A DNA stretch of 64,000 bases, taken from NCBI RefSeq assembly GCF_020215705.1, contig NZ_JAIWNB010000011.1:248001-312000 (forward strand). The letters run 5' to 3'. A program made the position numbers and the translations under genes. This DNA comes from Nonomuraea aurantiaca. GTDB taxonomy: Bacteria > Actinomycetota > Actinomycetes > Streptosporangiales > Streptosporangiaceae. The notes under the pieces were generated by a model. The model saw nothing but the letters and a program-made list of their open reading frames with translations, searched no databases and was not told where the DNA came from. Every line of letters begins with the position of its first letter. Position 1 is the first letter of the stretch. Positions 10,923 through 61,082 of this stretch are shown here, piece after piece.

Positions 10923-11069
10923 CCCCCGTCGGGGTTCGTCACGCGACCGTCTCAACCGGTGTGACGGTCCGTCGGGGCTGGCGTCCCTTGGAGGGATACC
11001 CCCTCCGGGGGAGGGGAAGAAACCGGTCCGTCGTGGCTGGCGCCGGAGCGGAAGAACGTGGATGCCGCG
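10923..11069 (-). repeat. Dispersed intergenic repeat, copy A
   Basis: The whole gap between convergent genes is one copy of a repeat also seen near 54.1, 57.1 and 60.4 kb. Read on the minus strand it contains GTTCTTCCGCTCCG, CAGCCACGACGGAC, a GC hairpin CCCCTCCCCCGGAGGGGG followed by TATCCC, a second CAGCCCCGACGGAC, and the core GAGACGGTCGCGTGACG followed by AACCCC. It lies directly against both stop codons. Confidence 0.8.
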
Positions 11070-12854
11070 CTAGGCGGTCACGATGGCGAAGTCGGGTATC
11101 GGGTGGTCGAGTACGGCCACCAGGCGCCGCAGTACGCCGATGTCGCCTTCTCGTTCGACCCGCTCGACCCCGCGGCCGGCCAGCAGGCCGAGTAGCTGCG
11201 CCTTGGTCAGTCGCAAGGTCAGGTCGACCGGCCCCTCGGGTGGGTCGGCGTGCTGGATGAGAGCGCCGTTCGACAGTGTGGTCCGGTACCTCTCGCCCAG
11301 ATCGGTCAGGTGCCAGTCGATGGACAGGCTCTCGTTCCAGGCCCGCGGCCCGTCGATCCGGATGGCGATCGAGTCGAGGATCTGGTCGACGCCGAGCGCG
11401 GCGACCAGGCCGGGCGCGGCCCGCTCCGTGGCGGCCGGCACGACGCCGTCACTCAGCTCCAGCGCACCCGTCAGGTAGAGGTTGCGCCAGGTGGCGTTCT
11501 CCGCGCCGTGCCCGAGCCGGGTGTACACCTCGGCGAGCAGGTCGCGCGCCTCCTTGTTGCCCTCGTCGGCGAAGACCGCGTGGTTGAGCAGCTGTGCGGC
11601 GAAGCGCAGGTCGTTCTCCTTGAGGTAGCGCCGGGCGAAGGCGACGACGGCCGCACCGCCGCCGAGGCACTCCACGTAGCGGATCGCGCTCTCCCTCGGC
11701 GGATGCTCCCACAGGTGCGCGGGGTTGCCGTCGAACCAGCCCAGGTAGTGCTGGTAGATGGCCTTGACGCTGTGGCCCACCGGCCCGTGGTACCCGTGCG
11801 CGTGCCAGACCTGCTCCAGTTCCGGCGGCACCCGCATGGCCTCGGCGATCTCCGCTCCGGTCAGGCCCTTGTTCATCAGCCGCAGGGTCTGGTCGTGCAG
11901 GTAGGAGTGCAGGTCACGCTGCCGCGACAGGAACCGGGCGATCTCCGGCCCGCCCCAGGTGGGCCAGTGGTGCGAGGCGAAGGCGACGTCGAGCTCGGCT
12001 GCGAACAGCGCGACCGTCTCGTCCAGCTGCCGGGCCAGGGCCTTGGCGTCCCGCAGGGGCAGGAGGTTGTGCGGGTTGCGGGTGGCGTTCTCGCCCAGGC
12101 ACAGGGCCCGGTGGCCGGGCAGGTACAGGGTCAGCTCCGGTGGCGCCTGGGCGAGCTGGAAGACGATGCGTACCCCGTCGACCGTCTTCTCCTGTCCCGT
12201 ACGTTCGACCTCGGCCGTGGGAGCGATGAGCGAGGTCGAACGGGCCTTGCCCAGGCCCGGACCGATCTGGCCATCGGGTGATCGTTCGAGCGCCTGGCCG
12301 TACAGGTAGACGGAGCGGCGAGCCGTGGCGGACCAGGCGTGCAGGTGCTCGCGGGCCACGTTCCGCAGGAAGCCCGCGGGCGCCAGGATCGGGACGCCGC
12401 CGCCGGTCACGCCGCGTACGCCGCCGAAGTGGTCGACGTGCGGATGCGTGTAGATCACCCCGGTCACGGGCCGGGCGCCGCGATGGGTTCGGTAGAGGCG
12501 CAGCGCCGCGGCCGCGCACTCGGTGGAGATGAGCGGGTCGATGATGATCACGCCGGAGTCGCCCTCGACGATCGACATGTTCGACAGGTCGAACCCGCGC
12601 ACCTGGTAGACGCCGTCCGTCACCTCGTACAGCCCCTGCCTGGCGGAGAGCCGCGCCTGCCGCCACAGGCTGGGATGCGCGCTGCCGGGGCACTCCTGCT
12701 CCAGGAAGGCGGCCGACTCGCCGTCCCAGATGACCTTGCTGTCGGCGGCGCTCACCACCGCCGGGCTGAACTTCGCGATGAAGCCGCGGTCCGCCGCCGC
12801 CTCGAAGTCGCTGGACTCGAAGTCGTTGGACTCGTGGAGTGGAAGGTCGGCCAT
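11070..12854 (-). CDS. Alkyl sulfatase (SdsA1/BDS1-like metallo-beta-lactamase fold)
   Basis: A 594-residue type III alkylsulfatase: a zinc metallohydrolase that cleaves alkyl sulfate esters such as SDS to alcohol and sulfate. The metallo-beta-lactamase domain carries THPHVDHFGG (HxHxDH) and later LCLGENATRNPHNLLPLRDA, which is specific to the alkylsulfatase group. An alkylsulfatase dimerisation domain follows (about 310-450, with WPTWGGPEIARFLSRQRDLH and YLGWFDGNPAHL), and an SCP2-like C-terminal domain that binds the hydrophobic substrate. No signal peptide is apparent, unlike SdsA1. Start is ATG 12854 (MADLPLHES) or ATG 12866 four codons earlier. The gene is divergent from the HAD phosphatase. 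Confidence 0.9.
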   Translation of the reverse strand: MADLPLHESNDFESSDFEAAADRGFIAKFSPAVVSAADSKVIWDGESAAFLEQECPGSAHPSLWRQARLSARQGLYEVTDGVYQVRGFDLSNMSIVEGDSGVIIIDPLISTECAAAALRLYRTHRGARPVTGVIYTHPHVDHFGGVRGVTGGGVPILAPAGFLRNVAREHLHAWSATARRSVYLYGQALERSPDGQIGPGLGKARSTSLIAPTAEVERTGQEKTVDGVRIVFQLAQAPPELTLYLPGHRALCLGENATRNPHNLLPLRDAKALARQLDETVALFAAELDVAFASHHWPTWGGPEIARFLSRQRDLHSYLHDQTLRLMNKGLTGAEIAEAMRVPPELEQVWHAHGYHGPVGHSVKAIYQHYLGWFDGNPAHLWEHPPRESAIRYVECLGGGAAVVAFARRYLKENDLRFAAQLLNHAVFADEGNKEARDLLAEVYTRLGHGAENATWRNLYLTGALELSDGVVPAATERAAPGLVAALGVDQILDSIAIRIDGPRAWNESLSIDWHLTDLGERYRTTLSNGALIQHADPPEGPVDLTLRLTKAQLLGLLAGRGVERVEREGDIGVLRRLVAVLDHPIPDFAIVTA

Positions 12855-15088: not shown

Positions 15089-15694
15089 GTGGACGTCGCC
15101 GAGGAGCTGGCCGCCGAGCTCGGGGACGCGGTGGCCGTACCCGCCGACCTACGCGAGCCGGACGCGGCGCGGCAGCTGTTCGACGAGGTCGAGCGGCGGC
15201 TGGGGCCGGTCGACGTGCTGGTGAACAACGCCGCGCACTGCGAGACCCCGGACGCCTTCGGCGCCCTCACCGCCGATGGCCTGCGCCGCCACTACGAGGT
15301 CAACGCGATCGCCCCCGCGCTGCTCGTCTCCGAACTGGCGAGGCGGCAGCGGTCCGGCCGCGAGCCGTGCGTGGTGAACGTCTCCACGGACGCCGCCCGC
15401 GCCTTTCCCGGTCAGATCGGGTACGGGACGTCCAAGGCGGCGTTGGAGGCCCTTACGCGGGCGGCCGCGCTCGACCTCGGCGCGGCCGGCATCCGGGTCA
15501 ACGCGGTGGCTCCCGGACCGGTGCAGACCGGCTGGATGGACGCCGAGATGTGCGCGCGGGTCGGCGAGATCGTGCCGCTGAGGCGTGTGGGTGAGCCCGC
15601 CGACATCGCCGACGCCGTCGTGTTCCTCGCCTCGCACCAGGCTCGGTGGATCACCGGTCAGATCCTGCAGGTGGCGGGCGGCCACGCGCTCTGA
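15089..15694 (+). pseudogene. SDR oxidoreductase missing its N-terminal NAD-binding end
   Basis: The open frame gives a classical short-chain dehydrogenase from the middle onward: VDVLVNNAAH, VNVSTDAA and YGTSKAAL (catalytic Ser, Tyr and Lys present), then NAVAPGPVQTGWM and a normal C-terminus. The first 40-50 residues, including the TGxxxGIG cofactor loop, are missing. The only in-frame start is GTG 15089, with no ribosome binding site, and a stop lies at 15059. In another frame just upstream (around 15058-15080) the codons spell TTGGSGR, which could be the remnant of the glycine-rich loop, suggesting a deletion that also shifted the frame. Without the loop the enzyme cannot bind NAD(P), so it is called a pseudogene. 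Confidence 0.65.
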
Positions 15695-15724
15695 GGAAGA
15701 CGCTCCGTCGTGGACACCGCTCTA
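15695..15724 (-). repeat. Fragment of the dispersed intergenic repeat (copy E)
   Basis: Read on the minus strand the gap between two convergent SDR remnants contains CCACGACGGAGCGTCTTCCTC, nearly identical to CCACGACGGACCGTCTTCTTC in the copy at 57.1 kb. The core of the repeat is absent. Confidence 0.5.
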
Positions 15725-16253
15725 GGCGAAGCCGCCGTTGCTCATCAGCAGTTGGCCGTTGATCCACTGGCCCTGGGGTGAGCAGAGGAAGTCGACCAGG
15801 TGGGCGGTCTCCTGGGGCGTGCCGAGGCGGTTGAGCGGGGTCTGGCGGACGATGCTCTCCCGTCCCTCGTCCGTCATCCAGCCGGTGTCCACCGGTCCGG
15901 GGTTGATGACGTTGGCGCTGACGCCGAGGTGGGCCAGCTCACGGGCGGCGGCCAGGACGATACGGTCCAGGGCGCCCTTGCTCGCGCCGTACGGGAGGTT
16001 GCCCACGGTGTGGTCGCTGGTGAGGCCGATGATCCGGCCGGTCCCGTGGGCGCCCGAGAAGCGGCGGCCGTACTCGCGGACCAGCAGCCAGGTGGCCCGC
16101 GCGTTGACTGCGCTCGCCGTACGGGCTCCAGTAGGTGTAGGCGATGTCCCAGCCCGAGGCCGCCAACCGGCGGGCGATCCCGGCGCCGATGCCTACGGTG
16201 CGGCCCACGCCGGTGACCAGGGCCACTTTTCCGTCGCGTCTCGTGTCGACCAT
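15722..16253 (-). pseudogene. SDR oxidoreductase with an internal out-of-frame deletion
   Basis: The minus strand starts at ATG 16253 with an SDR N-terminus, KVALVTGVGRTVGIGAGIARRL, and continues to AYTYWSPYGER at about 16115. There the frame changes: the next family sequence, VNARATWLLVREYGRRF, appears in a different frame. It leads through IIGLTSDHTVGNLPYGASKGAL (catalytic Tyr/Lys) to NVINPGPVDTGWM and the stop at 15722. Comparison with typical SDRs implies loss of roughly 70-80 codons between the cofactor domain and the active site. Neither half can form an enzyme. It is convergent with another damaged SDR and divergent from the nucleotidyltransferase gene. Confidence 0.75.
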
Positions 16254-35708: not shown

Positions 35709-35776
35709 GAGTCCTCCTTCGTCGGCCTCATGACCAAGGCGCTGTGCTTATTGATGACCTCGACAAGCTCGCTCAT
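35705..35776 (-). CDS. Small 23-residue ORF between the two permease genes
   Basis: ATG 35776 encodes a peptide beginning MSELVEVINKHS and ending RPTKEDS. It has a near-ideal ribosome binding site AAGGAGGCGGAC. Its ATG overlaps the upstream permease stop as ATGA and its own TGA overlaps the downstream permease start as ATGA. The peptide is not hydrophobic. This spacing and the strong initiation site suggest it is translated, either as a small functional peptide or as a coupling device that feeds ribosomes to the next gene. I do not recognise the peptide family. Confidence 0.6.
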   Translation of the reverse strand: MSELVEVINKHSALVMRPTKEDS

Positions 35777-42848: not shown

Positions 42849-45423
42849 GAGGCGGCCCGCGTTCGACGGCCCCCCGCTGCCCCAGGCTGACGGGCTGCCC
42901 ATCCGGCAGGTCCTGCCCGAGCTGCTCGACGTGCTCGACCGCGCCGGCTCGGCCGTCCTGACCTCGCCGCCCGGCACGGGCAAGACCACCGTCGTCCCGC
43001 TCGCCCTGGCGGCGACCGGGCTGCGGGTGCTGGTGGCGGAGCCGCGACGGCTGGCCGTACGCGCCGCCGCCAAGCGGATGGGCGTCAGCTACACGATCCG
43101 CGGCGAGCGGCACACCGGCGCCAACCCCCTGGTGGAGGTCGTCACCACCGGGGTGCTCCTGCAGCGGCTCCAGCGCGACCAGGAGCTGGCCGGCGTGGAC
43201 GTGGTGATGCTCGACGAATGCCACGAACGCCACCTCGACGCCGACACGGCGCTCGCTTTCCTGCTCGACGTACGGGACACGCTCCGCCCCGACCTGCGCC
43301 TCCTCGCCGCCTCGGCCACCGCGGACGCCGTCCCCTGGTCCCGCCTGCTCGGTGACGCGCCGATCGTGCACGCGTCGGGCGCGACGCACCCCGTCGAGAT
43401 CGTGTGGACGCCACCGGTACGCCCGGTCGCCCCGCCGCACGGCCTCCGGGTCGACCCCGCGCTGCTCTCGCACGTGGCCCAGGTCGTACGGCAGGCGCTG
43501 GCCGAACGGGAGGGCGACATCCTGTGCTTCCTGCCCGGCACGGGCGAGATCGCCAGGGTGGCCGCCCAGCTCGGCAGTGGGCTCTCCGGCGGCGTCGAGG
43601 TGCTTCAGGTGCACGGGCAGGCGCCGGCGCGGGTCCAGGACGCGGTGCTGTCGCCCGGGTCGGCGCGCAGGGTGGTGCTGGCCACGTCGGTGGCGGAGTC
43701 GAGCCTGACCGTGCCCGGGGTGCGGGTGGTGGTGGACTCGGGCCTGGCCAGGGAGCCGCGCACCGACCACGCCCGGGGGCTCGGCTCGCTCACCACCGTA
43801 CGGGTCTCGAAGGCGTCGGCCGACCAGCGCGCCGGGCGGGCCGGGCGAGAGGCTCCCGGCACGGTGTACCGGTGCTGGACGGCGGCGGAGCACGAGCGGC
43901 TGGCCGACCACGCACGGCCGGAGATCGCCCTGGCCGACCTCACGGGATTCGCGCTGCAGGCCGCCTGCTGGGGCGACCCGGACGCCTCGGGCCTCGCCCT
44001 GCTCGATCCGCCACCGCCCGCCGCGATGACCGCGGCCGCCCGCACCCTCCACACCCTGGGCGCCCTGGAACCGGCCCCCGGCACCACCACGCCCTCGTAC
44101 ACGCCGGACTCCGAAACCGACCAGGCGAGCGGCGACGGCGCAGACCGGGAGTCCGGTGGGGGCGCAGGCCGAGAGGCCGACGACGGCACCGGACGGGTGA
44201 TGTGGCGGGTGACCGCGCGGGGGCGGCGGATGGCACTGGTCGGCGTGCACCCGCGCCTGGCCAGAGCGCTCCTCGATCTCGGACCGCGCGCCGCCGAGGT
44301 GGTGGCGCTCCTGTCCGACCAGCTCCCCCGCGAGGCGGGTGACGACCTCGTGGAGATCTGGCGCTCGGCCCGCCACGGCCGCGACGGCTTCACCGCCCGC
44401 TGGCGCCAGGAGGTCCGCCGCCTCACCAGAAGCACCCCGCCCCCGAACCGGCAGGCCGTACCACCGGGCGGGCGGGAGTTGACCGACGACGCGGTGGCCG
44501 GGCTGGCGGTGGCGTTGGCGTTTCCTGAGCGGGTGGCGCGACGGCGGGGCGGCGGGTACCTGATGGCCTCCGGCACCCAGGCGCAGTTGGCCGACGGGTC
44601 GCGGCTCGGTGAGGCGAAGTGGCTGGCCGTGGCGGTGGCCGACCGTCCCACCGGCTCGGCGTCGGCCCGGATCCGGCAGGCCGTGGTGATCGACGAGGAG
44701 ACGGCCGGGCTGGCGTTCCCGGTGACCACCGAGGAGGAGATCATGTGGCGGACACCGCCGGGCGAGCGCCGCGGCGACGTGTCCGCCCGCGTCGTCGAGC
44801 GACTCGGCGCGATCGAGCTCTCCGCCACCCCGCTCAAGAACGCCGACGTACGCGAGGCCATCCTGTACGGCCTGCGCACCGAGGACGTGCTGACCTGGAC
44901 CAAGGAGGCCATCGCACTCAGGGACCGTCTGGCGTTCTGCCATCGCGAGCTCGGCGACCCATGGCTCCCGATGGACGACCTGGCGGAGATCGCCGAACGC
45001 TGGCTGGAGCCCGAGCTGTCCCGCGCCCGCCGCCGCGCCGACCTGGAGCGCATCGACGTGGCCACCGCCCTGAAGCGGCTGATCCCGTGGAGCCGACGGC
45101 TGGACGAGGTGGCGCCCGAGCGCGTCGCGGTGCCCAGCGGCTCCCGCGTCCGGGTGGACTATTCGGGCGGGCAACCGGTGCTGGCGGTCAAGCTGCAGGA
45201 GTTGTTCGGCTGGACGGAGACGCCGAAGATCGCGGGCGTGCCGCTCCTCGTACACCTGCTCTCTCCCGCCGGACGCCCGGTGGCGGTGACCGCGGACCTT
45301 GCGTCGTTCTGGCGCGAGGGCTACCGTGCGGTCCGCGCGGAGCTACGCGGCCGCTACCCCCGCCACCCCTGGCCGGAGGACCCGCTGACCGCGGCCCCCA
45401 CCCGCCGCGCGAACCCGAGATGA
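42835..45423 (+). CDS. hrpB: ATP-dependent helicase HrpB
   Basis: The 862-residue DEAH-box helicase has motif I SPPGTGKTTVVPLALA, Ia VAEPRRLAVRAAAKRM, II DECHERHLDADTALAF, III ASATAD, and VI QRAGRAGREAPG. The HA2 and C-terminal HrpB domains follow. At about 425-455 there is an acidic/glycine-rich low-complexity insertion (repeated GADRESG-like units) not expected in the family. The cellular role of bacterial HrpB is poorly understood; it is an RNA helicase. The start ATG 42835 lies inside the end of the ArsR gene, an unusual partnership. Confidence 0.93.
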   Translation: MSRSERRPAFDGPPLPQADGLPIRQVLPELLDVLDRAGSAVLTSPPGTGKTTVVPLALAATGLRVLVAEPRRLAVRAAAKRMGVSYTIRGERHTGANPLVEVVTTGVLLQRLQRDQELAGVDVVMLDECHERHLDADTALAFLLDVRDTLRPDLRLLAASATADAVPWSRLLGDAPIVHASGATHPVEIVWTPPVRPVAPPHGLRVDPALLSHVAQVVRQALAEREGDILCFLPGTGEIARVAAQLGSGLSGGVEVLQVHGQAPARVQDAVLSPGSARRVVLATSVAESSLTVPGVRVVVDSGLAREPRTDHARGLGSLTTVRVSKASADQRAGRAGREAPGTVYRCWTAAEHERLADHARPEIALADLTGFALQAACWGDPDASGLALLDPPPPAAMTAAARTLHTLGALEPAPGTTTPSYTPDSETDQASGDGADRESGGGAGREADDGTGRVMWRVTARGRRMALVGVHPRLARALLDLGPRAAEVVALLSDQLPREAGDDLVEIWRSARHGRDGFTARWRQEVRRLTRSTPPPNRQAVPPGGRELTDDAVAGLAVALAFPERVARRRGGGYLMASGTQAQLADGSRLGEAKWLAVAVADRPTGSASARIRQAVVIDEETAGLAFPVTTEEEIMWRTPPGERRGDVSARVVERLGAIELSATPLKNADVREAILYGLRTEDVLTWTKEAIALRDRLAFCHRELGDPWLPMDDLAEIAERWLEPELSRARRRADLERIDVATALKRLIPWSRRLDEVAPERVAVPSGSRVRVDYSGGQPVLAVKLQELFGWTETPKIAGVPLLVHLLSPAGRPVAVTADLASFWREGYRAVRAELRGRYPRHPWPEDPLTAAPTRRANPR

Positions 45424-54075: not shown

Positions 54076-54091
54076 CCACCGTCCCTCCCTA

Positions 54092-54170
54092 GGACCGCCT
54101 TCCTCCCCATTTCGAAGGCGGTATCCGAATCGAGACGGTCTCGTGACGAACCCCAGGGGACCCGTCGCGG
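54092..54170 (+). repeat. Dispersed intergenic repeat, copy D (partial)
   Basis: Contains CCTTCCTCCCC, GCGGTATCC and the core CGAGACGGTCTCGTGACGAA followed by CCCCAGGGGACCC, matching copies near 10.9, 57.1 and 60.4 kb. It lies upstream of the LAL regulator gene, between same-strand genes, unlike the other copies. Confidence 0.7.
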
Positions 54171-54242
54171 CCAGCGCCCCAGCGGGCCAAGCCGCCCGTC
54201 AACCTGCCCTAAATGCGTCGAAAGCGACTGGTGAGGCATGAC

Positions 54243-57125
54243 ATGCTGGACGACATGCTGGGACGTTCGGTAAGTCCCGTCTTCGTGGGGCGGGAAGAGG
54301 AGCTCACGACCCTCTCTCAAGCCTTCGACGAGGCCCGGAAGGGCGCCGCGACAGCCGTGCTGGTCGGCGGCGAGGCGGGAGTCGGCAAGACCCGGCTGGT
54401 ACAGCGCTTCGCCGAGCAGGCGGCGCGGAGCGGGGCTCATGTGCTGTACGGCGGGTGCGTCGAGCTCTCCACGGAGGGCTTGGCCTACGCGCCGTTCACG
54501 GCTGCCCTGAGGCAGCTGGTCAGGGAGCAGGGCACCACCCAGATCGCCGCGCTGCTGCCGGGCGGCGCCGAACGCGACCTGGCCCGGCTGCTCCCCGAGT
54601 TCGGCGAGCCCAGCGGCGACGGCGAGACCGACACGGGCCGGGCACGTCTGTTCGAGCAGTTCCTGACGCTCCTCCAACGGCTGGCCGGCAACCGGCCGAC
54701 GATCCTGCTCATCGAGGACATCCACTGGGCCGACCGGTCCAGCCGCGATCTGATCGCCTTCCTCAGCCGCAACCTCGGCACCGCGCAGATATTGATCGTC
54801 ATGACCTACCGCTCCGACGACCTGCACCGGCAGCATCCGCTCCGGCCGGTCCTGGCCGAGCTGGGCCGGGTCAGCGGCGTACTCAGGCTCGACCTGCCCC
54901 GCCTGTCCAGGGACGAGGTCGCCCTGCAGATGGCCGGGATCCTCGGCAGCGACCCCGATTACCCCAAGGTGCAGAAGGTCTACGAGCGCAGCGAGGGCAT
55001 CCCGCTGTTCGTCGAGGCCCTGCTCGACTGCGGCGAGGACTGCGCGTTCCCCGAGTCGATGCAGGACCTGATACTCGGCTCGGTCGAGCGGCTGCCCGAG
55101 GAGACCCAGCGCGTGCTGCGCATCGCCGCCGCGGGCGGCATCAGGGTCGGCCACGCCCTGCTCGCCGCGGTCAGCGGCCTGTCCGACCTGGAGCTGGAGG
55201 CCGCGCTGCGGTCGGCCATCGCCGGGAACGTGCTGCAGATCGCCGACAACCGCGCCTACGTCTTCCGGCACTCCCTCATCCGCGAGGCCGTACACGACGA
55301 GCTGCTGCCCGGTGAGCATCAACGGCTGCACTCGCGCTACGCCGAGGAGATCTCGCGCGACCGCAAGCTGGTGCCGCCGGGCCGGGCCGCCGTGGAGCTG
55401 GCCCACCACTGGTACGGCGCGCGCAACGACCTCTGGGCGCTGATCTCGGCCTGGGAGGCGGCGCAGAAGTCGTTCGTGGCCTTCGCCTACACCGAGGCGA
55501 TCCCGCTGCTCGAACGCGTACTCATGCTGTGGGACCGGGTGCCGGACGCGGCCGAGCGCATCGGCGCCGACCACACGGCGGTGCTCGAACGCGCGAGTGA
55601 GGCCGCCCTCGCGGGCGGCGAGCTCGACCGGGGCATCAAGTTCGTCAAGGCGGCCCTGTCGCAGCTCGACGAGACCCGGGAGCCGGCCCGGGTCGCCACG
55701 CTGATCGTGCGCTGGGCCAACCTCAAGATCTACAAGGGCAAGACCGGCGTCCTCGACGACTTCCAGCACGCGCTGCGTCTGGTGCCCGAGCCGAACCTGG
55801 CCCGCGCGAGCGTCATCATGCCGATGAGCCAGCACCTGATGCTCCGTGGCGACGTCAAGGAGGGCACCCGGCTCATCGAAGAGGGGCTGCGCCTGTGCCG
55901 GGACCTCGGCGACAAGTGCCTCGAAGGGGACCTCCTGCTGAACCTGGCGCTCGGCCACTCGATCGACGGTGACACAGAGGCGACGCTGGCCACCAACCTG
56001 CGGGCGCTGGAAATGGGCCGTCAGGAGAACTCGGGACGGCTCATCGCGCGGGCGATCGGCAACAACATCGACGCGCTGAGCGACCTCGGGCGCTCCGAAG
56101 AAGCGCTCGCGCTGGCCGACGAGGGCTGGCAGCTGGCCAAGCAGTACGGCCGGATGCGGCTCAACGGGCTGTTCATCCTCCTCAACAGGGCCGAGGCGCT
56201 GGAGGCCATCGGCCGCTGGGACGAGGCCCTCGAGACCCTCGCTCAGGCGCTCAGCTTCGGTCCCGTGCTGCGCACCTACAACCACCTGCTCCGCGTACGC
56301 GCCGACATCGCGCTGGCCAGGGGCGAGCTCGCGGTCGTCGAAGGCATCCTGGCGGAGCTGGGCGTGCTCAAGGAGCGGCCCGAGGAGTTCCTCCAGGACA
56401 TCACCAACAGCACCCGGCTGCGCATCGGCTGGCACCTGTTCAAGGGCGAGTCGCTGGCCGCGCTGGCCGTGACCGAGCGCATCCTGTCGTTGTCGTCGCA
56501 GTCCCCGTCGTCGCAGTCCCCCAAAGCCATGCTGGGCTGGCGGCGGCTGGCCCTGGTCACCCTGGTCTGCGACACGGCCGAGGACGCCGAGCCCGACCGG
56601 GTCCGCGCGGTGCGCGAGCAGGCCGCCAGGGTGGCCGCGAACCTCAAGGTCAGCGGGCCGGTGGCGGAGGCGTACAAACTGACGTACTCGCGCGACTTCG
56701 ACGCGGCCGCGGCCGCCTGGGAACGCCTCAAGCGCCCGCACAACCAGGCCAAGGCCCTCGTCAGAGCGGCCACCGCAGTGGCGCGGTCGGGCGACAGGGA
56801 GGGCGCGGCGACCCGCCTCGCCGTGGCCGCGCCGCTGGCCGCCGCGCTGCGGGCGACGCCGCTGATCGACGAGATCGAGGCGCTCTCCCGGCGCGTCGGC
56901 GTCGTCCAGCAGCAGGCGACCGTCCCCGAGCTGCTCACGCCGCGCGAGACGGAGGTGCTCCGGCTGGTGGCGCTGGGCCGTACGAACCGGGACATCGCCG
57001 GCGAGCTGTTCATCTCGGCCAAGACCGTCAGCGTGCACGTGTCCAACATCCTGGCCAAACTGGGCGTGACCACCCGCGGCGAGGCAGCGGCGGCCGCACA
57101 CCGCCTCTCCCTACTGACTCGGTAG
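54243..57125 (+). CDS. LAL-type LuxR family regulator with AAA ATPase
   Basis: The 960-residue regulator has an N-terminal AAA ATPase (FVGREEELTTL, Walker A GGEAGVGKTRLVQRF, Walker B-like TILLIEDIHWADRSSRD), a long helical TPR-like middle and a C-terminal LuxR helix-turn-helix (LTPRETEVLRLVALGRTNRDIAGELFISAKTVSVHVSNILAKLGVTTR). LAL regulators are ATP-switched activators, common in antibiotic and sugar clusters. ATG 54243 has GTGAGG at the right spacing; ATG 54213 is ten codons earlier. At 56493 a 15-bp in-frame tandem duplication yields SSQSPSSQSP. The target genes are not obvious. Confidence 0.9.
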   Translation: MLDDMLGRSVSPVFVGREEELTTLSQAFDEARKGAATAVLVGGEAGVGKTRLVQRFAEQAARSGAHVLYGGCVELSTEGLAYAPFTAALRQLVREQGTTQIAALLPGGAERDLARLLPEFGEPSGDGETDTGRARLFEQFLTLLQRLAGNRPTILLIEDIHWADRSSRDLIAFLSRNLGTAQILIVMTYRSDDLHRQHPLRPVLAELGRVSGVLRLDLPRLSRDEVALQMAGILGSDPDYPKVQKVYERSEGIPLFVEALLDCGEDCAFPESMQDLILGSVERLPEETQRVLRIAAAGGIRVGHALLAAVSGLSDLELEAALRSAIAGNVLQIADNRAYVFRHSLIREAVHDELLPGEHQRLHSRYAEEISRDRKLVPPGRAAVELAHHWYGARNDLWALISAWEAAQKSFVAFAYTEAIPLLERVLMLWDRVPDAAERIGADHTAVLERASEAALAGGELDRGIKFVKAALSQLDETREPARVATLIVRWANLKIYKGKTGVLDDFQHALRLVPEPNLARASVIMPMSQHLMLRGDVKEGTRLIEEGLRLCRDLGDKCLEGDLLLNLALGHSIDGDTEATLATNLRALEMGRQENSGRLIARAIGNNIDALSDLGRSEEALALADEGWQLAKQYGRMRLNGLFILLNRAEALEAIGRWDEALETLAQALSFGPVLRTYNHLLRVRADIALARGELAVVEGILAELGVLKERPEEFLQDITNSTRLRIGWHLFKGESLAALAVTERILSLSSQSPSSQSPKAMLGWRRLALVTLVCDTAEDAEPDRVRAVREQAARVAANLKVSGPVAEAYKLTYSRDFDAAAAAWERLKRPHNQAKALVRAATAVARSGDREGAATRLAVAAPLAAALRATPLIDEIEALSRRVGVVQQQATVPELLTPRETEVLRLVALGRTNRDIAGELFISAKTVSVHVSNILAKLGVTTRGEAAAAAHRLSLLTR

Positions 57126-57130
57126 GACCC

Positions 57131-57231
57131 CCCACCACGACGGACCGTCTTCTTCTCCTCCCCCGAAGGACCCCAGCCACGACGGACGTCACAGGAGTCG
57201 AGACGGTGGCGTAACGGACCCACTCCCCCAG
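57131..57231 (+). repeat. Dispersed intergenic repeat, copy B
   Basis: Contains CCACGACGGACCGTCTTCTTC, a TCCTCCCCCGA segment, a second CAGCCACGACGGAC, and the core GAGACGGTGGCGTAACGGAC. The core runs into the end of the convergent UvrA-like gene, so that gene's last 14 codons or so are made of repeat sequence. Confidence 0.75.
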
Positions 57232-59489
57232 GCAGCCAGGTCCCGGCGAAGGAACTCGGCGGTGTGGGAGCCGTCAGCCGCCAGCAGGTCGCGCGGCGTG
57301 CCCTCGAAGAGCACCCGGCCGCCCTGCCCGCCACCCTCGGGCCCGAGGTCGATGACCCAGTCGGCGTTCTTGACCACGTCCAGGTTGTGCTCGATGACGA
57401 CCACCGAGTTCCCGGCGTCGACGAGCCGGTCCATGATGTCGAGCAGCCGCTTCACGTCCGACATGTGCAGGCCGGTGGTCGGCTCGTCCAGGACGTACAC
57501 GGTGCCGCTCTTGTGCAGTTCAGTGGCCAGCTTGATGCGCTGGCACTCGCCGCCCGACAGCGTGCTGAGCGGCTGCCCGAGCGTGAGGTAGTCGAGCCCG
57601 ACGTCGTTGACCGCGCGCAGCACCCGCCTGAGCTTCGGCTGCGGGAAGAACGCGAACGCCTCGGCCGCCGTCATCTCCAGCACGTCGCTGATCGACTTCC
57701 CGTCGAGCTTGTGCTCCAGCACCTCCGGCCGGAAGCGCCGCCCCTGGCAGACCTCGCAGGTCGACTTCAGCCCGTCCATGAACGCCAGGTCGGTGTAGAT
57801 GACGCCGAGACCCTGGCAGGCGGGGCAGGCGCCCTTGGAGTTGGGGCTGAACAGCGAGGCGCTCACCGAGCCGGCCCGTGCGAACAGCCGCCGGATCTCG
57901 TCCAGCATCCCGGTGTAGGTGGCGGGGTTGGAGCGGCGCGAGACGCTGACGGCCGACTGGTCGATGACCACCGCATCGGGGTGGCGGCTCAGGAACACGT
58001 CGTTGACCAGCGTGCTCTTGCCGGATCCCGCGACGCCCGTCACGACGGTCAGCACGCCGGCGGGGATGTCGACGGTGACGTCCTTCAGGTTGTGCGTGTT
58101 CGCGCCGGCGATCGTCATCGCGCCCGTGGGGCGCCGGTAGCCGGTCTTCAGGGGTAGTCGCTGCTTCATGTACCGGCCGGTCATGGTGTCCGCCTCGGGC
58201 AGCGCCGCCGCGGTGCCCTCGTACACCACCTGCCCGCCGCGTGTCCCGGCGCCGGGGCCGATGTCCACGACGTGGTCGGCGATCCTGATCACCTCGGGGT
58301 CGTGCTCGACGACGATGACCGTGTTGCCCTTGTCCCGCAGCTTGCGCAGCAGCGTGTTGAGCCGTTCGACGTCGCGCGCGTGCAGCCCGACGCTCGGCTC
58401 GTCGAAGACGTACATCATGTCCGTGAGGCTGCTGCTGAGGTGCCGCACCATCTTGACGCGCTGTGACTCGCCGCCCGAGAGCGTGGCGGTCTCGCGGTCG
58501 AGGCTGAGGTAGCCGAGGCCGATCGTGACGAGGTCGCGCACCCGCTCGATCAGGCTCGCCACCACGGGAGCGCCCACCGGGTCGGTGAACCCGGCCAGCA
58601 CCTCAACGAGCTCGGTGGCCTCCATCGCGGCGAGCCGGGCGATGTTGAAGCCGTCGATCTCGCAGCCGAGCACCTCCTGATTGAGCCGGGTGCCCGCGCA
58701 CAGCGCGCAGGTGGCCGTCGTGACGTACTCCTGGAAGAGCCGGCGGTTGGCCTCGGACATCTCGGCGACGTCCTTCTTGATGTACAGGCGGGTGAACCGC
58801 TCCACCACGCCCTCGTAGCTGGAGTTGATCGTGCCGCCCTGCCACTCCAGCGGCACCTTGGCCTGGGCGCCGTGCAGCAGCGTCGCCCATTCCCGCTCGT
58901 CGTAGTCGGCCAGCCTCTTGTCGTTGTCGAACAGGCCGGAGTTGGCGTAGATCTTCCAGTACCAGGTGCCGACCGCGAAGTGCGGGTGCAGGAGGGCACC
59001 TTCGTTCAGCGACCGGGACCTGTCCAGGAAGACGTCGAGGTCGAGCGCGACCGTCCTGCCCAGACCCTCGCATTCGGGGCACATGCCCTGAGGATCGTTG
59101 AACGAGAAGGCGTTGGAGTAGCCGACGAACGGCTTGCCGACCCGCGAGAACAGCAGTCTCAGCAGCGAGTAGATGTCGCTGATCGTGCCGACGGTCGAAC
59201 GCGAGCCGCCCCCGAGCCGCTTCTGGTCGACCACGATCGCGGCGGAGAGGTTCTCGATCACGTCGACGTCCGGCTGCCCGTACTTCGGCAGCCTGTTGCG
59301 GGCGAAGCTGGTGAAGGTCTCGTTGAGCTGCCGCTGCGCCTCGGCGGCCAGGGTGTCGAACACAATGGACGACTTCCCGGACCCGGATACGCCGGTGAAG
59401 ACGGTGATCTGCCCCTTCGGGATGCTCAGGGAGATGTCGCGGAGATTGTTCTCGCGCGCGCCGATGATCTGGATACGGGACGCCTGCAA
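57189..59489 (-). CDS. UvrA-like ABC ATPase (drug-resistance/DrrC type)
   Basis: The 766-residue protein has two UvrA-type ABC domains: first Walker A TGVSGSGKSSIVFDTLA, signature LSGGESQRVKMVRHL; second TGVAGSGKSTLVNDVFL, signature LSGGECQRIKLATEL. Zinc-type Cys motifs CPECEGLG, CALCAGTRL, CPACQGLG and CEVCQGRRF are present. It is about 170 residues shorter than housekeeping UvrA, like the UvrA paralogues (for example DrrC) that protect DNA against intercalators. TTG 59489 follows GAGGAG. The divergent TetR gene and a 37-bp palindrome suggest ligand-induced expression. The C-terminal codons lie in repeat copy B. Confidence 0.9.
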   Translation of the reverse strand: MQASRIQIIGARENNLRDISLSIPKGQITVFTGVSGSGKSSIVFDTLAAEAQRQLNETFTSFARNRLPKYGQPDVDVIENLSAAIVVDQKRLGGGSRSTVGTISDIYSLLRLLFSRVGKPFVGYSNAFSFNDPQGMCPECEGLGRTVALDLDVFLDRSRSLNEGALLHPHFAVGTWYWKIYANSGLFDNDKRLADYDEREWATLLHGAQAKVPLEWQGGTINSSYEGVVERFTRLYIKKDVAEMSEANRRLFQEYVTTATCALCAGTRLNQEVLGCEIDGFNIARLAAMEATELVEVLAGFTDPVGAPVVASLIERVRDLVTIGLGYLSLDRETATLSGGESQRVKMVRHLSSSLTDMMYVFDEPSVGLHARDVERLNTLLRKLRDKGNTVIVVEHDPEVIRIADHVVDIGPGAGTRGGQVVYEGTAAALPEADTMTGRYMKQRLPLKTGYRRPTGAMTIAGANTHNLKDVTVDIPAGVLTVVTGVAGSGKSTLVNDVFLSRHPDAVVIDQSAVSVSRRSNPATYTGMLDEIRRLFARAGSVSASLFSPNSKGACPACQGLGVIYTDLAFMDGLKSTCEVCQGRRFRPEVLEHKLDGKSISDVLEMTAAEAFAFFPQPKLRRVLRAVNDVGLDYLTLGQPLSTLSGGECQRIKLATELHKSGTVYVLDEPTTGLHMSDVKRLLDIMDRLVDAGNSVVVIEHNLDVVKNADWVIDLGPEGGGQGGRVLFEGTPRDLLAADGSHTAEFLRRDLAAWGSGSVTPPSRLL

Positions 59490-59510
59490 CGCCACTCCTC
59501 GATCTCGAGT

Positions 59511-59547
59511 AACTCCGTACGCAGTACATCGTACTATGTACGGAGTT
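59511..59547. promoter_or_regulatory. 37-bp palindrome between the UvrA-like and TetR genes
   Basis: Arms AACTCCGTACGCAGTAC and GTACTATGTACGGAGTT, around a 3-base centre, match at 15 of 17 positions. The TACTAT at 59532-59537 looks like a -10 element, and TACGAT occurs on the opposite strand, so a repressor bound here would block both promoters. The obvious candidate is the adjacent TetR protein. Confidence 0.85.
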
Positions 59548-60339
59548 ATGCTGAGTGAGAAGATGGATGATGTGCCGCTCACGATCGCCCGGACCAGCGC
59601 CGGAGACCCCGCCCGCACCATAGAGCTGCTCTGGAGGCGGCCGGGAGCGCGGCCGGCGCAGCGCGGGCCACGTCAGGGCCACACGGTCGACGAGGTAGTC
59701 GCCGCCGCGATCGCCGTCGCCGACGAGGAGGGCCTCGACGCCACGACGATGCGGCGGGTCGCCCAGGCGCTGGGGATCGGCACGATGTCGCTCTACACGT
59801 ACGTGCCGGGCAAGGCCGAGCTGCTCGACCTCATGCTCGACACGGTCCTCGGCCAGATGCCGCGCCCCGACCTCGCGGACCTGCCGTGGCGGGCGCGGCT
59901 GGAGGCGGTGGCGCGGGCCAACCTCACGCTGTACGAACGACACCCGTGGATGCTCGCCGTGTCCACCACACGCCCGCCGCTCGGCCCGGGGGTCCTGGCC
60001 AAGTACGAGCACGAGCTGCGGGCCTTCGAAGGGCTCGGCCTGGGCGACGTGGAGATGGACGCCGCCCTGACCTACCTGCTCGGCTTCGTCCACGCCTCCG
60101 CCCGCTCAGCCGCCGACCAGCGGGCCGCCCAGAACGACGCGATGACGGACGAGCAGTGGTGGGCCGTCAGCTCTCCGCTGCTCGCCCGCCTCTCCGACGA
60201 GGCCGCCTACCCGACGGCCAGCCGGGTCGGCGCGGCCGCCGGAGCCGCCCACCAGGCCGCCTACAGCGCCGACCACGCCTACGAGTTCGGCCTTGAGCGC
60301 GTCCTGGACGGCCTCCAGGTCCTCATCGAACGCCGCTAG
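59548..60339 (+). CDS. TetR family regulator (TetR_C type)
   Basis: The 263-residue regulator has an unusual N-terminal extension of about 40 residues (ARTIELLWRRPGARPAQRGPRQGHTVDEV) before the helix-turn-helix VAAAIAVADEEGLDATTMRRVAQALGIGTMSLYTYVPGKAELLDLML; the C-terminal domain has the TetR_C pattern. This class includes TetR itself and regulators of efflux genes. The start is uncertain: ATG 59536, 59548 and 59563 are in frame and the promoter palindrome ends at 59547, so 59548 would be nearly leaderless. The partner is the divergent UvrA-like gene. Confidence 0.88.
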   Translation: MLSEKMDDVPLTIARTSAGDPARTIELLWRRPGARPAQRGPRQGHTVDEVVAAAIAVADEEGLDATTMRRVAQALGIGTMSLYTYVPGKAELLDLMLDTVLGQMPRPDLADLPWRARLEAVARANLTLYERHPWMLAVSTTRPPLGPGVLAKYEHELRAFEGLGLGDVEMDAALTYLLGFVHASARSAADQRAAQNDAMTDEQWWAVSSPLLARLSDEAAYPTASRVGAAAGAAHQAAYSADHAYEFGLERVLDGLQVLIERR

Positions 60340-60360
60340 AGGCGCCCTCGCCCGCTACCC

Positions 60361-60519
60361 GTTCTTCCGCTCCGCCGCAGGGGCATCCTCCGAGGGGCCC
60401 GCTTCTTCCCGCTCCCCCGGAGGGGGTATCCCAAGGGACCGCAGCCACCACAGACCGCCACAGGGGCCGAAACGGTCGTGTCACGAACCTCCGGGGACCC
60501 CGTGCGGTCACCGCCCTAG
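60361..60519 (+). repeat. Dispersed intergenic repeat, copy C (longest)
   Basis: Aligns over most of its length with copy A read on the other strand: GTTCTTCCGCTCCG, CTTCTTCCCGCTCCCCC, GGAGGGGGTATCCCAAGGGA, CAGCCACCACAGACCG, then the core GAAACGGTCGTGTCACGAAC and CTCCGGGGACCCC. It fills the space between the TetR stop and the convergent GDT1 stop, and the last bases (CCCTAGACG) include the GDT1 stop codon. Confidence 0.8.
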
Positions 60520-61082
60520 ACGACCGCGTCGACCAGCAGCGCGACCCCGAAGATCGCGAACACCGCGGCGGCCCCATACCTGATCGCCTTCTCCGGCAGG
60601 TGCTTGCCCAGCAGGCGCCCCACCACGATCGCGAGGGCATCGGCGGCGACCATGCCCACGGTGGACCCGATCCAGGTGCCCAGCCAGCCGTGCTGCGTCG
60701 CCAGCGTGATGGTGGCCAGCATGGTCTTGTCACCCAGCTCGCTCAGGAAGAACGCCACCGTCACCGCGACCACGGCGTTCCTGGTGGTGCGCCGGGCCTT
60801 GCGCGACTCCTCTTCCGTCAGCTCGTCACCGCGCAGCGTCCACAGGGCGAAACCCAGGAAGGCGAGGCCGGCCACGACGGAGATGGCGGTGGTGGGCAAC
60901 GCGTCGCCGATCAGCCCGCCCACCGCGACGCTGACGAGGTGCACGGCGGTCGTCGCGATCGTGATGCCGGCCAGCACCGGCCCAGGCTTGAAACGGGTGG
61001 CGAACGTCATCGCCATGAGCTGGCTCTTGTCCCCCATCTCGGCCACGAAAATGACCGCGAGGCTGATCCAGAACGCTTCCAA
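60516..61082 (-). CDS. TMEM165/GDT1 family (UPF0016) manganese transporter candidate
   Basis: The 188-residue membrane protein has the duplicated signature of the GDT1 family: FVAEMGDKSQLMAMTFATRF near the N-terminus and FFLSELGDKTMLATITLATQH in the second half, each within three helices. Relatives such as MneA/Mnx export Mn2+ and others move Ca2+. Here a yybP-ykoY (Mn2+-sensing) riboswitch lies directly upstream, which favours manganese export. The start is TTG 61082. Confidence 0.92.
   Translation of the reverse strand: MEAFWISLAVIFVAEMGDKSQLMAMTFATRFKPGPVLAGITIATTAVHLVSVAVGGLIGDALPTTAISVVAGLAFLGFALWTLRGDELTEEESRKARRTTRNAVVAVTVAFFLSELGDKTMLATITLATQHGWLGTWIGSTVGMVAADALAIVVGRLLGKHLPEKAIRYGAAAVFAIFGVALLVDAVV

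Follow-up and report, generated by a model that had tools for sequence, protein, structure and literature searches.

The genome of the soil actinobacterium Nonomuraea aurantiaca (G000; 11.85 Mb, 132 contigs) carries a family of short, gene-less intergenic elements with a modular anatomy. The elements are missing from 26 corresponding sites aligned in close relatives, favor CTAG both as target and beside their ends, and have ends that match those of IS630-type insertion sequences (ISs). We conclude that the family very likely consists of non-autonomous miniature inverted-repeat transposable elements (MITEs) of the IS630/Tc1-mariner type that are presumably moved in trans into the TA of CTAG. 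The analysis started from a 64,000-nucleotide stretch of contig C13 (positions 248,001 to 312,000), referred to as the window, and was extended to the whole genome and to other Nonomuraea species, above all N. guangzhouensis (G052) and another close species (G066).

A dispersed repeat family

The initial annotation of the window proposed a dispersed family of intergenic repeats that share an ordered set of blocks. This family is real, with three strong copies, one weak copy and one 25-bp fragment in the window, and 65 copies of its conserved end genome-wide. In the window, the core pattern GAGACGGTNNCGTNACGAAC matches four times when up to 3 mismatches are allowed, whereas 0.28 matches are expected and none of 100 shuffles reaches four. 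Across the whole genome, the exact pattern matches 9 times versus 0 in the reversed control, and a 21-base form at up to 3 mismatches matches 56 times versus 6. A covariance model built from 21 copies yields at least 109 genome matches at E ≤ 1, from a scan in which 150 of 7470 first-look candidates were scored; some of these matches are successive units within one array. The count of 65 was obtained with a weight matrix for the 45-bp end applied to fetched loci (67 rows including two from N. guangzhouensis) and leaves out five weak covariance-model loci.

The copies are short, apparently free of a transposase gene, and dispersed in large number, as is typical of MITEs, and complete copies that were read span about 180-590 bp. 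Rfam returned no gathering-score match to described RNA families in the window. Matches of the core pattern in Haloferax were set aside, as neither fits the four element loci compared. One copy (L119) has no DNA relative in the plasmid collection.

Anatomy of the element

Read toward the conserved end, the element is composed of a left inverted repeat, zero to eight tandem units, a 45-bp end, and a right inverted repeat. The terminal repeats are each about 26 bp long and in the best copies read TGCGGTG.CCACGA..GTTC.CCGGG. By-eye reading of the aligned rows gives (T)GCGG.RTCCACGAACGTTCGCCGGG for the left repeat, CACAGGGATCGAGACGGTCGTGTGACGAACC for the conserved end after the array, and TGCGGTGACCACGATGGTTCCCCGGG for the right repeat in reverse. 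The 45-bp end contains GACCGTC..GACGGTC. The units (consensus TCTTCCGCTCCCCCGAAGGGGGTATCCCTCCAAAGGGACCCCAGCCACGACGGACCGT) are GC-rich, about 58 bp long and arranged head-to-tail, with a median spacing of 56 over 110 spacings. Among 67 elements, two of them from N. guangzhouensis, three have no unit, 11 have one, 23 have two, 16 have three, and 14 have four to eight, counts that take in some partial units.

Inverted-repeat ends are recognizable in 15 of the 65 N. aurantiaca copies (19 ends), and both repeats are present at up to 3 mismatches in just four (L060, L089, L093, L119). A compact form in N. guangzhouensis is about 130 bp long and has the two ends, with 2 and 5 mismatches, and one locus of this species has five units spaced at 58-59 bp.

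Copies in the window

The window copies and related features are listed in Table 1. Four copies and a fragment had been claimed, three of which are strong covariance-model matches: copy 1 (10928-11030, minus strand, 102.5 bits), copy 3 (57141-57225, plus strand, 52.7 bits) and copy 4 (60395-60494, plus strand, 90.9 bits). The fourth, placed near 54092, is degenerate and matches weakly (54091-54157, plus strand, 18.3 bits, E = 0.019); no tandem unit is obvious in it by eye, and the relatives have no empty CTAG there. Two extents needed correction. The copy placed at 60361-60519 spans CTAG to CTAG, 60336-60519, and the fragment placed at 15695-15724 covers 15693-15717 and carries the unit word CCACGACGGA at 15704 (minus strand). 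In copy 1, the second inverted repeat is not recognizable.

Table 1. Features of the element copies in the window, and array-free inserts between IS630-type ends in other Nonomuraea loci.
Feature	Coordinates	Strand	Remarks
Copy 1 (L051)	10923-11069	-	~147 bp; two unit matches; between convergent genes; insertion in N. aurantiaca only
Copy 1 core	10934-10953	-	core pattern
Copy 1 left inverted-repeat remnant	11057-11069	-	CGCGGCATCCACG in element direction
Copy 1 flanking CTAG	11070-11073		contains stop codon 11070-11072 of right-hand ORF
Unit remnant, 25 bp	15693-15717	-	N. aurantiaca only; before CTAG 15722-15725; CGCTCT on both sides
Copy 2, degenerate	54080-54209	+	N. aurantiaca only; 130 bp replacing 10-11 bp of relatives
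Copy 2 core	54132-54151	+	CTAG at 54089-54092
Copy 3	57129-57236	+	N. aurantiaca only; 108 bp replacing 2 bp of N. guangzhouensis
Copy 3 core	57200-57219	+	
Copy 4 (L066), best in window	60339-60516	+	178 bp between two CTAGs
Copy 4 core	60469-60488	+	
Copy 4 right inverted-repeat remnant	about 60490-60515	+	ends GGTCACCGCC; 4 mismatches
Left CTAG of copy 4	60336-60339		holds TAG stop (60337-60339) of ORF ending at 60339
Right CTAG of copy 4	60516-60519		holds stop 60516-60518 (minus) of ORF 60516-61082
Array-free inserts between IS630-type ends	L374 460-919; L375 825-1372; L376 470-1138; L386 498-1173		

The copies were described as lying in gaps, but the one near 57131 (copy 3) extends into the last codons of the right-hand ORF. 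It overlaps the 3' end of this minus-strand ORF (57189-59621) over 57189-57236, and its insertion may have altered the last residues of the protein.

All five window places are empty in N. guangzhouensis, and likewise in G066 where aligned or read. The copy 1 site measures 145 bp versus 2 in G066 and 157 versus 6 in N. guangzhouensis, and the empty site in G066 reads CCTAGG. At the remnant, both relatives read GCGCTCTAGGCG without an insert, and both have CCGCTAGGAC at the empty site of copy 3. The copy 4 site measures 180 bp versus 4 in N. guangzhouensis. G066 does not have the gene between 57 and 60 kb, and copies 3 and 4 were judged there from one short spacer. Two other insertions of about 60 bp relative to N. 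guangzhouensis (35710-35772 and 44121-44178) have short edge duplications and by eye do not belong to this family.

Empty sites in related species

The flanks of copy 1 and of locus L040 have matches in all 54 Nonomuraea genomes searched, among the matches listed. The element is absent from the copy 1 site in both relatives in which it was read (G066 and G052), and from the L040 site in all five (G052, G066, G019, G008 and G053). More broadly, both flanks could be aligned in G052 and/or G066 for 26 N. aurantiaca sites (24 of the 27 seeded sites plus L040 and L051), and all 26 are empty. At 21 of the 26, the shortest empty site leaves no more than 20 bp unaligned. A covariance-model scan of the relatives' loci (64 sources) detected no copy at the sites; its matches are confined to two G019 loci and a single further, off-site hit at E 0.87.

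At two sites the relative carries something else: N. guangzhouensis has a 264-bp array-like sequence at the L120 site and 1024 bp at the L131 site. The former (L215) is GC-rich, combines short repeats with an unrelated tail, and may represent a sister family at the same site.

With stricter filters and E ≤ 0.01, the model has 12 matches in N. guangzhouensis, two in G019 and none in 51 other genomes, G066 among them. Three of five N. guangzhouensis loci are common to N. aurantiaca (L072=L041, L077=L055, L104=L126). The empty sites and the common loci together indicate that the family is older than the split between N. aurantiaca and N. guangzhouensis, and that the tested N. aurantiaca copies were probably gained after it. 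Wholesale loss from both N. guangzhouensis and G066 is less likely. Since three loci are common to N. aurantiaca and N. guangzhouensis and G066 has no model match, losses also seem to occur. The two G019 loci hold diverged unit-like copies (L101, 529-633; L103, 339-418) between convergent called genes, one of them beside CTAG.

IS630-type insertion sequences with the same ends

A check for a partner transposase was proposed together with the family, and it identified IS630-type ISs with the ends of the element in three other Nonomuraea genomes. A pattern derived from the element ends matches 102 times in 40 of 54 genomes, 16 of these matches in N. aurantiaca, versus 4 in the reversed control. 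Inverted pairs of such ends lie about 1.27 kb apart in G006, G059 (two pairs) and G003, with CTAG on both sides and a transposase gene inside. The G006 protein exceeds the cut-off of 100 bits for the NCBIfam IS630 transposase profile, scoring 104.8 bits (E 5.9e-30) in a match that covers positions 1-220 of the 299 in the profile. Across residues 1-256, the G059 and G003 transposases align with this protein at 87-90%.

Among the 16 matches in N. aurantiaca, no IS with both matching ends was seen. On contig C83, a solo end is separated by about 1.2 kb from an IS630-like gene whose matches fall in two reading frames. This repeat was rejected as an autonomous copy because the intervening gene resembles, by eye, one for an unrelated NAD(P)-binding protein and the IS630-like neighbor has matches in two frames.

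Plasmids also carry related transposases, in 205 records of which 126 are from Streptomyces. Three plasmid loci were read. A Streptomyces plasmid IS630 (L395) has CTAG beside both of its ends, which match at 1 and 3 mismatches, the second locus (L396) has one end at 3 mismatches, and the third (L397) has ends at 4 and 5. In other Nonomuraea, IS630-type ends also flank inserts of 460-680 bp without tandem arrays (Table 1), some of which by eye include coding-like stretches, possible passenger genes.

CTAG targets and placement at gene ends

Of the 26 shortest empty sites, 13 contain exact CTAG and 17 contain either CTAG or another YTAR, leaving 13 without exact CTAG and nine with neither. In G066, CTAG occurs at 24 of 294 gene 3' ends, at 4 of 32 convergent junctions (≤100 bp) and in 0.8% of random 34-mers; the target windows average 38 bases around the empty sites and the gene-end controls 34. 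In N. aurantiaca, which holds the element, CTAG occurs at 31 of 285 gene 3' ends and at 9 of 30 short convergent junctions, which makes the contrast with the junction control weaker.

CTAG also adjoins the element ends. Of 19 recognizable N. aurantiaca ends, five are preceded by exact CTAG and eight more by three of its four letters, frequencies that are 0.09% and 4.4% among random 4-mers. At loci of other Nonomuraea, 28 of 47 distinct ends are preceded by CTAG and nine more by three of four letters. The search for flanking duplications that had been suggested found CTAG on both sides of the insert at L044, L045 and L066; L066 is copy 4 of the window (60339-60516). At these three loci, duplication of TA and of CTAG look identical, since the first base of the element is G and its last base is C.

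Gene neighbors were taken from simple home-made gene calls. Of the 67 elements (65 in N. aurantiaca), 34 are flanked by convergent genes and three by divergent ones; at 16 only the right-hand gene points toward the element and at 10 only the left-hand one, and four have a called gene on just one side. Thirty-four of the 63 elements with called genes on both sides (61 from N. aurantiaca, two from N. guangzhouensis) are thus convergent, versus 60 of 293 neighboring gene pairs in 400 kb of G066, where another 61 are divergent. Among the 52 cases in which the right gene points inward, 49 have the conserved end no more than 45 bp from the stop codon of that gene. Genes adjoining N. aurantiaca copies often end in TAG: 25 of 49 on the right and 24 of 42 on the left do so, versus 65 of 285 genes called in 400 kb. 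A 400-kb stretch of N. aurantiaca contains 107 CTAGs, of which 15 fall inside called genes; the caller covers 74% of the sequence. When the TAG stops of convergent genes overlap, a single CTAG supplies both stops, and both are rebuilt upon insertion, as in copy 4.

These features suggest a mechanism. A transposase of the IS630 type, supplied by an IS with the same ends, would mobilize the element in trans, presumably by cutting and pasting it into the TA of CTAG. This tetranucleotide is rare in the GC-rich genome, lies mostly outside called genes or at gene ends, and often provides the stop codon TAG for a single gene or for two convergent genes whose stops overlap. Insertion would probably duplicate TA rather than CTAG, and with an element that runs from G to C, CTAG would be rebuilt on both sides. 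Both genes would keep their stops, so copies could accumulate there. The length of the array may change by slippage.

A more elaborate version is conceivable, in which the transposon lineage has settled on overlapping convergent stops as a safe harbor and the array serves as a portable insulator, read-through being tuned by the number of units. CTAG is self-complementary and contains TAG on both strands, so each insertion would rebuild both stops, as this version supposes; we consider it unlikely.

Folding, age and alternative origins

The placement between convergent genes, with only three divergent cases, could also reflect selection: the copies would act as bidirectional terminators or as 3'-UTR elements, keep convergent genes insulated from each other, and sit at stop codons for that function. 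Their GC-rich palindromes and one stem fit this idea: across 137 units, the main stem has 7 compensatory cells versus 3.0 ± 1.5 in shuffles. Its pairing, however, is 0.906 versus 0.897 in shuffles, and that of a second stem is 0.746 versus 0.758. The second stem and both terminal pairings have no compensatory excess over shuffles. The alifold consensus has a covariation term of -0.09, and one copy folded on both strands is no more stable than shuffles (z 0.06 and -0.35). An RNA function was rejected on these grounds. No promoter- or terminator-like consensus site was detected within 57000-60700, and the element is absent from the 26 tested sites in close species. A conserved hairpin or terminator function therefore has little support, and selection for it is an improbable source of the placement, although a terminator effect could arise as a by-product of insertion. 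Because the stems are hardly maintained, we read the placement as target choice and tolerance rather than function.

The copies look old and decayed. Over the 45-bp end, the 45 best N. aurantiaca copies differ by 11.8% from their consensus and by 20% pairwise, and fourfold-site divergence between N. aurantiaca and N. guangzhouensis is 0.16. Copy divergence is near species divergence, which points to a burst around the species split or to several diverged sources. As the pairwise value exceeds 0.16, the copies either came from several diverged sources or have a fast-mutating end.

Mobilization by another family that targets CTAG or YTAR, IS5 or IS701, instead of IS630 is highly improbable. MITEPsy1, likened to an IS5-family IS, is described as duplicating CTAG or YTAA in the part of the source available (PMC3189936), and an IS701-family IS of N. 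aurantiaca (L334, C40:24354-25400) is likewise flanked by TTAG and CTAG. The ends of this IS701-family IS, TACTCCAGCCGCACTT, are unlike those of the element, whereas IS630-type ends match at 1-3 mismatches in several species. IS701 was rejected as partner, the best of its three N. aurantiaca matches having ends that differ from those of the element.

REP/BIME sequences are built from a 20-40 bp palindromic unit and have a linked RAYT gene. That the family is REP/BIME-like, its short palindromes serving as binding or mRNA-protecting sites and owing their spread to a RAYT (Y1 tyrosine) transposase, is likewise highly improbable: GC-rich, intergenic short palindromes often flanked by convergent genes would suit it, but the element has units of about 58 bp set head-to-tail inside inverted-repeat ends, its palindromes have almost no covariation above shuffles, and it shares its ends with IS630-type elements and prefers CTAG. 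The initial annotation had likened the copies between convergent genes to REP/BIME or MITE elements. The unit length and the terminal repeats speak against the former, and the empty sites, the IS630-type ends, the CTAG preference and the convergent placement uphold the latter.

Relation to known elements

The closest known kinds of element to this likely IS630-type MITE are the pneumococcal RUP, an IS630-type MITE, and the modular BOX with its tandem core. RUP is described as a 107-bp intergenic repeat with 108 copies and proposed mobilization by IS630-Spn1, and resembles the element in being short and intergenic, in having ends common to an IS630-family IS, and presumably in inserting at TA (available part of PMC2229807). 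It differs in that RUP is a simple 107-bp sequence, whereas the element has zero to eight tandem units, a GC-rich host, and a preference for CTAG and stop codons. BOX of Streptococcus has the plan boxA-boxB(n)-boxC, is thought to be mobile, and has ends likened to ISSpn2. It resembles the element, compared by plan alone, in its variable tandem array between fixed ends; in contrast, no CTAG targeting is mentioned in the available part of the source (PMC3049150).

For IS630 itself, the target is given as the TA within 5'-CTAG-3' (Tenzen and Ohtsubo 1991, cited in PMC2170065), and TA duplication is described for ISY100 in the available part of the same source (PMC2170065). The target tetranucleotide is that of the element, but the systems described there are insertion sequences and composite transposons, whereas the element is gene-less and sits at actinobacterial stop codons. 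MITEPsy1 of Pseudomonas syringae, as far as the available part of PMC3189936 describes it, is unlike the element in having ISPsy2-like (IS5 family) ends, a length of 100 nt, and few copies. The portion of the literature covered by our search has no report that joins 'miniature inverted-repeat transposable' with 'Nonomuraea', nor anything recognizable as this element. In light of these sources, the family, its combination of features and its fit between CTAG and stop codons look new.

The element joins two designs that are known separately, a MITE driven by IS630 and a variable tandem core like that of BOX. The at least 26 before/after pairs in close species could be used to test the effect of a palindrome array on transcription. 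The placement between convergent genes, which looks functional, is explained without a function. A simple target rule (CTAG) combined with genome composition would provide a mobile element with a near-harmless niche at gene ends. As the favored CTAG sits mostly at gene ends, the family could spread between genes without breaking them.
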